Shown: one piece after another, positions 4,076-40,369 of the stretch
Layout of the letters: every line of letters starts with the position of its first letter
How positions within the stretch are numbered: the first letter of the stretch is position 1
Virus record (IMG/VR): IMGVR_UViG_3300045284_000166
Coordinates: 1-40,369 of that record
Source: a virus
Strand: one strand, 5' to 3'
Length of the DNA stretch: 40,369 nt
Notes under the pieces: generated by a model
Database searches by the model: none
The model's input: only the letters and a program-made list of their open reading frames with translations
Told to the model about the DNA's origin: nothing
Position numbers and translations under genes: made by a program

Positions 4076-5046
4076 ATCGGCCTTCTATTCAGGTTTATCC
4101 CGGAGATTGGCAGCGAGATACGAGCCTCAGAATTTGTTCTTTAGCAGCGCGCGGTTTGTGGATAGAAATTCTTTGGATCATGCATCAGTCCAACCCCTAC
4201 GGACACCTCGTTTTGAACTCCAAATCCATCACCATCGCGGAACTATCGAGGATGGTCGGCGCTGGCCCTAGAGAAGTCCGGAAGCTGCTAGAAGAATTAA
4301 AACAATCAGGCACATGCAGCGTTACATCAGAGGGAGTTATTTATTGCAGGCGCATGGTCAGGGACGAGGCATTACGGGTTGTTCGGGCCAACGGCGGACA
4401 AGCTGGCGCGGGGTATGGAATCATGGGGTCTGAATACGGAATTAAGGGCGGAAGGCCGTCCGAAAGGGGGGATAAAAAACCCCCCTTGAAACCCCCCTTG
4501 AAACCCCCCTTGAAACCCCCCCCTTCTTCTTCATCTTCTACTTCAGTAAACAGCGCAGCAGCAAGCACCGTGCTTAATCCGCGCGAGACCGCGCTTGATG
4601 CCGGCCAAAGCGCGCTGCTTGAAAATCAAGGGGAACCCCAAAACCCAAAACCGAATGGAAAGCCGGCGGCATACGCGGCTGAACTGAACCGGCTAGGGGT
4701 CGCTATTTCCGAAACGAATGAATACCTGCTGGCCTGGATCGCCGCCGGACACACACTTCCGTTCATCGTGGAGTGTGTTCAGAAAATATGGGCCAGTGGC
4801 TCAAAAAAAGTCGGGGACGCAATCTTGCCAAAGTACCTCGACAAAAAGGTGAGCGACCCAAGCAATGGGATTGCAACCGCCGCGCAGGAATCATCCTCAG
4901 GCATCCCGTTTGGCTGCATTCGGTGCAAAAACTGCGGAACGATTACCGGAACGAGCCACGTCAACGGACAGTGCGACGATTGCCATTTCGGGCGCAAACC
5001 CGCCAGGGCGCCAGCCGGTCAAACGCAACTCATGAATGGAAACTAG
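4072..5046 (+). CDS. Phage replication initiator-like protein
   Basis: A 324-residue protein. Residues 1-110 resemble the N-terminal winged-helix domain of phage replication proteins of the DUF1376/DUF4373 kind: QVYPGDWQRDTSLR, then LSLAARGLWIEILWIMH-like helices, then ITIAELSRMVGAGPREVRKL. A disordered linker with three and a half KPPL repeats and a Ser-rich run joins it to a helical domain (residues about 200-280). It ends in a zinc ribbon, CIRCKNCGT...CDDC. I infer that it opens the phage origin and recruits host replication proteins, since no phage helicase or polymerase is present. The start at 4072 overlaps the previous stop. Confidence 0.65.
   Translation: MNRPSIQVYPGDWQRDTSLRICSLAARGLWIEILWIMHQSNPYGHLVLNSKSITIAELSRMVGAGPREVRKLLEELKQSGTCSVTSEGVIYCRRMVRDEALRVVRANGGQAGAGYGIMGSEYGIKGGRPSERGDKKPPLKPPLKPPLKPPPSSSSSTSVNSAAASTVLNPRETALDAGQSALLENQGEPQNPKPNGKPAAYAAELNRLGVAISETNEYLLAWIAAGHTLPFIVECVQKIWASGSKKVGDAILPKYLDKKVSDPSNGIATAAQESSSGIPFGCIRCKNCGTITGTSHVNGQCDDCHFGRKPARAPAGQTQLMNGN
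4477..4521 (+). repeat. 12-base tandem repeat (KPPL coding)
   Basis: Three full copies of AAACCCCCCTTG and a fourth partial copy lie in frame inside the replication gene. Each copy encodes Lys-Pro-Pro-Leu. The C6 tracts and the exact repetition are prone to slippage or copy-number change; whole-unit changes keep the frame. Confidence 0.9.
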
Positions 5047-6225: not shown

Positions 6226-6260
6226 AAAAGTTGACTTTTCCGGCCATATGTGACAAAAAT
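6226..6260 (+). promoter_or_regulatory. Late-block promoter with palindromic -35 region
   Basis: TTGACT at 6231-6236 lies within the inverted repeat AAAAGT-TG-ACTTTT (6226-6239). AAAAAT at 6255-6260 is 18 bases downstream. The predicted start of transcription falls at or next to ATG 6267. The palindrome could be an operator. Confidence 0.45.
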
Positions 6261-6266
6261 GCGCGT

Positions 6267-6605
6267 ATGTTCAAACCTTTGCATGATTATTTGCTGATCC
6301 GGCCGGAGAAAACGCCGGAATTCTCGCCTCTGATCGTCGTCTCCAATGACCGCATGAACCGTGGCATCGTCGTCGCCGCCGGCCCCGGCAAGTGGCTGCG
6401 AATCAAGTCCGGGCTGATCCACGAACCGGAATCCGGCGTGTTCCTGCCGAATACGGTCAAAGTCGGCGACTTCGTGACCTATACCGATTTGGACATCTTT
6501 CCGAAGTGGCGCGAACGCGACGGCGCGGAGCAGTTCGTGATAATTCAGGAGGTTGATGTCACCTGGATTGAGGAACACGAACCGGAGCAGCAACGTGCCG
6601 CCTAA
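6267..6605 (+). CDS. GroES-like co-chaperonin
   Basis: A 112-residue protein with the GroES fold pattern. FKPLHDYLLIRPEKT matches the PLHDRVIV start of GroES. It is followed by a shortened mobile loop (EFSPLIVVSNDRMNRG), whose LIV could replace the GroEL-binding Ile-Val-Leu, then GIVVAAGPGK, VFLPNTVKVGDFVTY and a closing strand VIIQEVDVTWI. Phage co-chaperonins such as T4 gp31 cap host GroEL and help fold the coat protein. No Shine-Dalgarno sequence precedes ATG 6267, but a promoter places the transcript start near it. An in-frame TTG at 6231 is an unlikely start. It stands directly before the packaging and capsid genes. Confidence 0.8.
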   Translation: MFKPLHDYLLIRPEKTPEFSPLIVVSNDRMNRGIVVAAGPGKWLRIKSGLIHEPESGVFLPNTVKVGDFVTYTDLDIFPKWRERDGAEQFVIIQEVDVTWIEEHEPEQQRAA

Positions 6606-38617: not shown

Positions 38618-38919
38618 TCCCGCCCATCCTGCACCGCCTGGGCCCCCTCTCAATCGAGCAGATAGGCGCCGAACTCGGCAACCCGAACGATCGCACCCTG
38701 CGCGCCTGGCTCACTGCGCTACGCGACGAGGGGCGCATTGTGCAGCGGTACGCGGGCAGGAACGGCATAAACGGGCGCGTCTATGCCTACGACATCGCGC
38801 CCGCGTACTCGCCGTTGCCGACGATGCGCGCGACCGAGTACCGCTGGCCGGTGCCAACGGGGTCTGACCCAGACCGCGTGCTCCGCTTATTCCGGCTGGA
38901 TGGGCAGGGGGCAGAATGA
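38614..38919 (+). CDS. Winged-helix protein with a non-standard start
   Basis: An open frame runs from 38593 to TGA 38919 with no ATG, GTG or TTG near its beginning. CTG at 38614 overlaps the preceding stop (CTGA) in the way ATGA does elsewhere in this genome, giving 101 residues. The content is clearly protein-like: ILHRLGPLSIEQIGAELGNP, then TLRAWLTALRDEGRIVQRYA, a winged helix, then VYAYDIAPAYSPLP. The stop overlaps the next ATG. A -1 frameshift from the upstream gene is the alternative. Confidence 0.55.
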   Translation: MIPPILHRLGPLSIEQIGAELGNPNDRTLRAWLTALRDEGRIVQRYAGRNGINGRVYAYDIAPAYSPLPTMRATEYRWPVPTGSDPDRVLRLFRLDGQGAE

Positions 38920-39137
38920 GCGTGTGGGCAGACGGCGAATGGCATCAGTACGATCCGAGGTGGACGCGGGAATATTGCGACTATGTGGACAGACTTCGCA
39001 CGGAGGGCCTGCGTTACCATCCGGTCGGTTTTTGCCGCAAGTGCTTGACTGTTCACCTTGATCCGCACCTGAATCCGTGCGCGACATACTCAGACAGGCG
39101 CAACCCGCTGCATAAGCCTGATTGGGGCACACCCTGA
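38916..39137 (+). CDS. Small zinc-binding protein
   Basis: A 73-residue protein, ATGA-coupled to the winged-helix frame. Aromatic N-terminus (SVWADGEWHQYDPRWTREYC), then GFCRKCLTVHLDPHLNPCAT with three Cys and two His, a likely zinc site. Last gene of the short rightward operon; a hairpin with a T-run follows. Confidence 0.6.
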   Translation: MSVWADGEWHQYDPRWTREYCDYVDRLRTEGLRYHPVGFCRKCLTVHLDPHLNPCATYSDRRNPLHKPDWGTP

Positions 39138-39155
39138 GGCCGTGCGGCCGCTTTT
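39138..39155 (+). terminator. Weak terminator
   Basis: GGCC-GTGC-GGCC hairpin (39138-39149) followed by GC and TTTT, directly after the stop at 39137. The stem is short. Confidence 0.4.
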
Positions 39156-39183
39156 CCGGCTGGATCAATAGGTAGATCAGGGT

Positions 39184-39419
39184 GGTGCTAACATGCGCTC
39201 TAACCGGCCGCGGTAAGTTCCCTCCTGCCGCCGGCTAGGCCCCGGTTCGCTTTCCTATGCCGCGCATGCGTTCCAGGGCCGACTGGATGCTGACCTCGGC
39301 GCGGTGTGGCTCCTGCGCCGAGGCGGGGCAGTGAATGCTCGGCGCGTGCGGCAACCGGGGCCGCGCGCGGCTGAGACAGCCCCCGGCGTGCGGGTTGCGC
39401 CGGGGGCGAACAGAACGCT
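39184..39419 (+). repeat. Structured leader element, copy B
   Basis: Diverged direct copy of 153-340, upstream of the methyltransferase. Hairpin 1: 39204-39211 with 39227-39234. Compared with copy A its fourth pair is swapped from C-G to G-C and one pair is lost, while the loop is identical. Hairpin 2: 39380-39389 with 39397-39406, where one C-G pair becomes a U-G pair. A 48-base insert adds a perfect 9-base stem (39294-39302 with 39315-39323). The gap 39138-39513 holds no gene. The similarity resumes just before the start codons (GGCCGCCTAC). Confidence 0.65.
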
Positions 39420-39458
39420 GCGCTCTCCTCGCCAACACGCGGCAAACCGGCGCAGACA

Positions 39459-39490
39459 GGCCGGGGGCGGGCGTCACGCCCGCCCCGGCC
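39459..39490 (+). promoter_or_regulatory. Strong GC hairpin in the methyltransferase leader
   Basis: A 14-pair stem with one bulged G and a 3-base loop, ending 23 bases before ATG 39514. No T-run follows. It holds the place of the 381-410 hairpin in copy A and could limit ribosome entry or stall transcription. Confidence 0.5.
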
Positions 39491-39513
39491 GCCTACAGCG
39501 AGGTTCGTGGAAA

Positions 39514-40369
39514 ATGAAACCATTGGCGATTGATCTTTTCGCGGGCCTAGGTGGCTGGTCTGAAGGATTGCTCGCCGAGGGCTTCGACGTGATCGGATTT
39601 GACATTGAGCAGCACTGCTATGGAGATCTGCATTACCCGGCGCAACTCGTCTTGCAGAACGTTCTGACGCTGCACGGCAGACAGTTTAAGGATGCCGCGC
39701 TGATCGTCGCAAGCCCGCCGTGTCAGGAATTCAGCTACATGGCGATGCCGTGGTCGCGCGCGAAACAGGTAGCGCGAGCGCTGCGCGGTCAGGATGTATT
39801 CCCTGATGGATATACAGGGTCGCGGACCATTGGACAATTGACCGAGCTTTTCGATACTTGTTTCAGAATACAACGCGAAGCCTGCGCGGCTGCCGGCCGC
39901 CATATCCCTATGATCGTTGAAAACGTCAGGGGCGCGCAACCTTGGGTTGGACGTAGTAGAGCCAATTTTGGAAGCTACCACCTTTACGGCGACGTGCCAG
40001 CGCTGATGCCGATGACGAACAAACGCGCCATTATGAAGGCGGAAGTTGTTGGAACACGGCATCTTGGTTGCACAAACTTTCACCAGAGCGAAGAGAGGCG
40101 AGCAACAAAAAACAATGGCGGCTCATGGTTCAATGTCGGTTCGCCAGGGCAAAAGGAATTGAACAGGAATCCGGTGAATGAAGGCTTCAAACCGCACGGC
40201 ATGAACTGGAGCAACCGGGAGTTGCGTGGCCAGGGCTTTACGCGCATCACTGGCAAGCAAGCGGAGGGTGTGAAGGGTTCGGAGGGATACGAGCGCGATC
40301 ATCCGAACGCGCTAGGCTGGAAAAAGCCGAACACGTCCAGCCACAGCAGCGCCAGAAAAGCCGCTTCTG
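39514..40369 (+). CDS. Cytosine-C5 DNA methyltransferase, N-terminal part
   Basis: Runs to the right end and continues at 1-159 (310 residues in all). Motif I starts at residue 7 (DLFAGLGGWSEGL, binds S-adenosylmethionine), motif II includes GFDIE, motif IV is SPPCQEFS with the catalytic Cys70, and motif VI is IVENVRG at 134-140. The remaining part is compact, so the target-recognition region is short. Phage enzymes of this type methylate phage DNA and shield it from host restriction. No matching restriction enzyme gene is seen. GTGGAAA lies just before ATG 39514. Confidence 0.9.
   Translation, partial: MKPLAIDLFAGLGGWSEGLLAEGFDVIGFDIEQHCYGDLHYPAQLVLQNVLTLHGRQFKDAALIVASPPCQEFSYMAMPWSRAKQVARALRGQDVFPDGYTGSRTIGQLTELFDTCFRIQREACAAAGRHIPMIVENVRGAQPWVGRSRANFGSYHLYGDVPALMPMTNKRAIMKAEVVGTRHLGCTNFHQSEERRATKNNGGSWFNVGSPGQKELNRNPVNEGFKPHGMNWSNRELRGQGFTRITGKQAEGVKGSEGYERDHPNALGWKKPNTSSHSSARKAAS
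40288..40369. repeat. Terminal overlap, right copy
   Basis: Copy of bases 1-82, with A at 40292 in place of G at 5. The exact match is 77 bases. See the left copy. Confidence 0.9.

Follow-up and report, generated by a model that had tools for sequence, protein, structure and literature searches.

The question raised by this locus is what function may be served by a structured stretch of DNA that occurs twice in one virus genome, on both sides of a cytosine-methylase gene. The window, i.e., the whole stretch of 40,369 nucleotides that was analyzed, represents the whole virus record (IMG/VR IMGVR_UViG_3300045284_000166); its ends overlap by 82 bases (1-82 and 40288-40369, with one mismatch), so the genome is probably circular or permuted. 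The original prediction placed a duplicated leader at 153-340 and 39184-39419, and both copies are present there: positions 146-251 and 39178-39283 are 88% identical over 106 nt, and positions 254-340 and 39333-39419 are 97% identical over 87 nt. The remaining direct repeats found in the window, record-end overlap aside, reach just 20-29 nt. The location thus stood, but the boundaries had been drawn too narrowly, as the GGCCGCCTAC end common to both copies (408-417 and 39487-39496, after the terminal hairpin of each) extends the element to 149-417 and 39181-39496, both on the + strand (hereafter copy 149 and copy 39181, respectively). Several finer details of the prediction were borne out by the window copies: in hairpin 1 a C-G pair is swapped to G-C while the TTCCCTCC loop stays the same, in the GCCCCCGGCG hairpin C-G is replaced by U-G, and both copies end in a hairpin and the shared GGCCGCCTAC. 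The parts of the locus are as follows:

153-163, + strand: box GTGCTAAACTG of copy 149, extended -10-like TGCTAAACT, invariant in 16 of 17 copies
164-169, + strand: six variable GC-rich bases of copy 149, discriminator-like; length fixed at 6 and sequence variable in all copies
170-202, + strand: putative RNA start AACCG and hairpin 1 (stem 172-202) of copy 149; loop TTCCCTCC at 186-193 invariant
206-248, + strand: hairpin 2 of copy 149, GGCCCCGG/CCGGGGCC type, 96% of cells paired over 16 copies
254-379, + strand: exchangeable units of copy 149, each beginning with GAAYGCT (254, 334), with hairpins and AG linker
380-417, + strand: terminal hairpin (380-411) and GGCCGCCTAC end of copy 149, strong covariation
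431-610, + strand: SP59, conserved 59-aa gene with GTG start; found in 15 other contigs, element upstream in all
39185-39195, + strand: box GTGCTAACATG of copy 39181, a variant that fits TGnTAnnnT
39202-39234, + strand: putative RNA start and hairpin 1 (stem 39204-39234) of copy 39181; loop TTCCCTCC at 39218-39225
39238-39280, + strand: hairpin 2 of copy 39181
39285-39458, + strand: exchangeable GARYGCT units of copy 39181, one of them missing from copy 149
39459-39496, + strand: terminal hairpin (39459-39490) and GGCCGCCTAC end of copy 39181, covariation
39514-40369 and on across the record ends to 1-159, + strand: C5-methylase gene between the copies, 310 aa, PF00145

The additional hairpin unit of copy 39181 amounts to about 48 nt. 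The methylase gene, flanked by both copies, spans the record ends, its length of 310 aa being obtained by reading through the 82-base overlap, owing to which ORF callers will split the gene; its stop codon is the TAA inside the box of copy 149.

The element is also found outside the window. Scans of viral contigs for exact patterns, drawn either from the loop region or from the box joined to AACCG, revealed 14 other contigs with real homologues, while a search with the 59-aa protein, repeated with protein alignment, returned the identical 14 contigs and one more, L125. The view of L125 as a contig devoid of the element was rejected when a covariance model, for which the 5' halves of the 16 other copies had been used, located a copy (79 bits) one gene further upstream than expected; since the other copies match this model by construction, the L125 match serves as independent confirmation. 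Altogether, 17 copies in 16 records were collected, two of them in the window and one in each of 15 other IMG/VR contigs. A looser box-plus-loop scan gave 49 stretches, among which only the already known contigs pass the model; the pattern of hairpin 2 followed by GAAYGCT produced mostly chance matches; no copy turned up among annotated phage genomes when these were searched for sequences similar to the element; and the lone pattern match in bacterial genomes, in a Verrucomicrobium MAG, was dismissed as chance, having neither the loop nor the hairpins. In Rfam the window had no match at the gathering score and only chance-level matches (E 1.5-4.6) at a permissive threshold. With 17 copies in 16 records as the yield of scans of viral contigs, annotated phages and bacterial genomes, the family is a narrow one. 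A single group of metagenome viruses accounts for all copies, and the best relatives of single proteins belong to phages of cyanobacteria, Xanthomonas, Shewanella and others.

All copies possess the same anatomy, with a total length of 180-320 bases. Each begins with the box GTGCTAAACTG (GTGCTAACATG at 39185; consensus GTGCTAA(ACT)G), six variable GC-rich bases and A[AC]CCG, which are followed by hairpin 1 (outer stem and UCCCUCC loop, the latter in 17 of 17 copies), YA (GA in L006), hairpin 2 (GGCCCCGG...CCGGGGCC), GA, at least one unit starting with GARYGCU and containing a hairpin, an AG linker and, finally, the terminal hairpin with a 3-nt loop and the end GCCGCCYA or close to it (GGCCGCCYAC in fuller form). 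The inner GARYGCU units vary freely between copies in both number and sequence. The model of the 5' half weakly matches the 3' half (332-416, 14.7 bits), which suggests that the element grew through repetition of a single GARYGCU-hairpin unit.

The case for folding as RNA is strongest in the terminal hairpin. In this hairpin 99.5% of cells are paired, in comparison with 39-53% in slid controls, and double changes occur at 5 pairs and in 16 cells, a number of cells reached by none of 500 shuffles, although shuffles overstate significance, since the rows represent related viruses. Its 17 wobble cells are exclusively G-U, with no A-C among them, which assigns the folded strand to the + strand. 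Alignment A3, produced by MAFFT without structure, is nearly gap-free. In hairpins 1 and 2, 85% and 96% of cells are paired, respectively, and their joint covariation is not clearly above that of column shuffles. The compensated pair in hairpin 1, from which the RNA had originally been predicted, is thus a real swap with weak value as covariation: it is intact in two of the 16 copies and broken to G-G in two. The folding energy (z = -2.0 and -2.5) constitutes modest evidence by itself. The 17 copies, the terminal-hairpin covariation, the G-U asymmetry and the blind detection of the L125 copy support a structured RNA class, so that this part of the prediction of a cis-acting RNA class held, though on evidence other than hairpin 1. 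The element looks like a previously uncatalogued structured leader RNA.

How such an RNA could be produced is suggested by the box. TGCTAAACT or TGCTAACAT fits the extended -10 motif TGnTAnnnT about 7 nt before AACCG, and in the sole variant, with TAAACT changed to TAACAT (TGCTAACAT), TAnnnT is retained. By this resemblance we infer that the box is a promoter. The spacing from the box to AACCG is constant at 7 bases, which would set the RNA start 2 nt upstream of the hairpin 1 stem; hairpins 1 and 2 begin within 2 nt of the putative start and span 69-81 nt. No recognisable -35 box is conserved upstream of the -10-like box across the copies, and the DNA 5' of the box is conserved only among copies preceded by the same gene. 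GCGCTCT near 39196 could be taken for a boxA-like sequence, a reading that was discarded since the six bases there are not conserved. The element of L016 closely follows a terminator-like hairpin and its T-tract, therefore transcription in this phage probably restarts at the element; the scan detected no terminator-like site upstream of it in L125 or L022.

The position of the element is as constant as its neighbours are changeable. It stands as a single copy at a fixed locus in 15 of the 16 records, within the conserved order of an HTH gene, small genes, variable genes, the element, no or one variable gene, and the 59-aa gene. The latter gene was found in 15 other contigs, always with the element upstream on the same strand. 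In the window it heads the block leading to the terminase, which includes a replication-type gene. The window terminase is encoded in none of the 15 other records, some of which are fragments; the element is accordingly a feature of the control region instead of one phage lineage, and constitutes a control locus conserved among phages whose virion genes differ. In the window, 12-base tandem repeats (AAACCCCCCTTG) at 4477-4521, inside a replisome-organizer-like gene, could be a replication origin, and a protein that is GroES-like by eye is encoded at 6231-6605, directly 5' of the terminase genes; a GroES is annotated at the corresponding place in Xanthomonas phage PBR31. The 59-aa protein is basic, nearly invariant in its first 32 residues and predicted to form two helices (mean pLDDT 86). 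Profile searches with it found no known family and no lambda N match, thus giving no support to the idea of a lambda N-like protein.

Gene content switches exactly at the element borders, the number of independent junctions being judged by eye. On the upstream side the neighbours are a 59-aa gene X, the methylase (with two types of junction) and others; the downstream neighbour is the 59-aa gene, the methylase (window only), gene C (L005) or a gene that is PAPS-reductase-like by eye (L125). In five records (L004, L009, L010, L019 and L020) a convergent gene lies 3' of the element and shares a divergent operator-like palindrome with the 59-aa gene. An insertion of a convergent gene between the element and the 59-aa gene was noted at 280-760 of L120 and in L121, L129, L130 and L132, where the common divergent region of these two genes carries the phage-operator-like palindrome AATGTGTAAAA...TTTTACACATT. 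Several upstream reading frames enter the box, stop on its TAA and end with -EC or -QC. Near position 2728 of L123 and in L121, homologous upstream genes have different ends, the C-terminus in L123 being replaced by VQC and the TAA of the element, which directly records a recombination at this border of the element. In L129 the same gene X tail directly abuts the methylase with no element between them, and this junction represents the empty site of copy 39181. The two window copies might have been regarded as a recent tandem duplication; this origin was rejected, because copy 39181 shares 95% identity with the L005 copy over 242 nt and just 74% with its sister, copy 149. Copy 39181 was thus probably acquired by recombination with an L005-like phage. 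At 38916-39168 of the window a 73-aa gene has been inserted, and behind it lies a remnant that duplicates the 3' end of gene X next to it; this arrangement is the mark of the recombination that introduced copy 39181.

Considering these observations, we tentatively favour, at somewhat less than an even chance, the reading of the element as a promoter with a structured leader RNA that heads a transcription unit and acts in cis. The promoter would rely mainly on the extended -10 box TGCTAAACT, and the RNA, starting at or next to AACCG, would fold immediately into hairpins 1 and 2, to be followed by the exchangeable hairpins and the terminal hairpin just before the next gene. Transcription would thereby restart at an early-operon junction, where the first rightward genes give way to the block that the 59-aa gene heads. 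The hairpins would most probably affect, in cis, either the RNA polymerase during transcription or the mRNA, through pausing, readthrough, stability or translation. Genes on either side could be exchanged without loss of expression, as a self-contained promoter and leader would let phages swap flanking genes while expression is kept. This reading is supported by the 17 copies, the constant 7-base spacing, the terminal-hairpin covariation, the association with the 59-aa gene, the terminator-like site before the element in L016, the absence of the window terminase from the 15 other records and the use of the box TAA as a stop, while the lack of a conserved -35, the low covariation in hairpins 1 and 2 and the lack of an excess of downstream internal terminators count against it. 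A further point against it is that, in the five phages with a convergent gene, the RNA would not be the leader of the adjacent message. These same copies, having no adjacent sense gene, rule out as a general function the proposed cis masking of the next gene's Shine-Dalgarno sequence by pairing with the loop; the anti-Shine-Dalgarno mechanism is unproven.

The loop might instead act in trans. As a free-standing sRNA, the element would pair through UCCCUCC with Shine-Dalgarno sequences of host or phage mRNAs, which would suit a loop that is invariant while the stems differ by type, as well as an element that also precedes convergent genes with no evident leader role. Some sRNAs carry an anti-Shine-Dalgarno motif, such as NfeR1 (PMC10746234). 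Alpha-proteobacterial sRNAs of this type share with the element a C-rich CCUCC-type loop exposed by a hairpin. Unlike them, the element is promoter-linked and phage-borne, contains several further conserved hairpins and has no Rfam match; furthermore, a U-tract terminator is missing from its 3' end, GGAGGGA is present within genes as well as at a number of phage gene starts, with no conserved target, and the linkers, hairpin 2 and the terminal hairpin, i.e., most of the conserved length, would be superfluous for such a loop. We therefore consider the sRNA rather unlikely. Somewhat less probable is a protein-binding site, with the basic 59-aa protein as the best candidate ligand, at which RNA and protein would modify RNA polymerase in the manner of lambda N/nut. 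The one-to-one occurrence of element and 59-aa gene, the basic character, two predicted helices and nearly invariant N-terminal part of the protein, and the resemblance of the repeated GARYGCU-hairpin units to repeated sites agree with it, so the protein could be an RNA-binding partner; yet it matches neither N nor any other family, the association may merely reflect common descent of the region, and internal terminators are not enriched: a crude scan counted 13 and 15 terminator-like sites downstream vs 20 and 22 in shuffles, hence no excess by which a need for antitermination might be explained.

The sharp borders, the many different neighbours on both sides, the presence in L129 of the methylase start but not of the element found before it in the window, and the termination of upstream genes on the element's own TAA would fit structured DNA serving cassette exchange, with the RNA fold as a by-product. 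Such a recombination or mobility element is nevertheless improbable, given that 15 of 16 records have a single copy at a constant location, that no tyrosine integrase was found and no target duplication seen, and that wobbles in the terminal hairpin are G-U and not A-C, which points to RNA. Least of all do we expect an array of terminators or insulators ending upstream and convergent transcription: the hairpins are very GC-rich and in five records lie between convergent genes, but the + strand has no U-tract after the terminal hairpin, and the invariant box and loop would be left unexplained.

Among known systems, the promoter with a structured leader may be compared with HK022 put, of which putL forms two stem-loops with paired residues 3-72 (PMC9378689). 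Both have two adjacent stem-loops near the transcript start (~70 nt in put, 69-81 nt here, with promoter and start deduced from the motifs), and put would, by analogy, be the nearest known mechanism. The element differs in occurring as a rule once per genome and not once per early promoter, in having further variable hairpins and in facing no excess of terminators to suppress; a search of HK022 with model R1 gave no match. It is a doubtful possibility that the element represents a new class of phage-encoded RNA, made up of repeatable GARYGCU-hairpin units and unrelated in sequence to put/nut, that reprograms RNA polymerase at the transcript start, alone or with the 59-aa protein. The late leader of lambda-type Q resembles the element in that a promoter and a structured leader separate early genes from a long rightward block, but no conserved DNA lies upstream of the element's -10 where Q would bind, and the downstream block in the window still holds a replication-type gene. 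Phage_antitermQ (PF06530) had no match in the 16 records, several of them fragments, and in the search with PF06323 the control gave no signal. T4-type PeSL cassettes are units of a promoter and a stem-loop at the borders of exchanged genes, a position shared by the element, which is much longer and more elaborate, lacks a -35 and a U-tract terminator and occupies a fixed locus.

To our knowledge, few RNA elements act on the polymerase that made them, and we know of few promoter-plus-leader units at the borders of phage gene swaps. The clear anatomy, 17 natural variants and constant protein neighbour make the putative promoter, the folding and the protein binding testable on short DNA. Such an element, in which a putative promoter is joined to a structured leader, marks the borders of gene swaps in 16 otherwise very different phage sequences.
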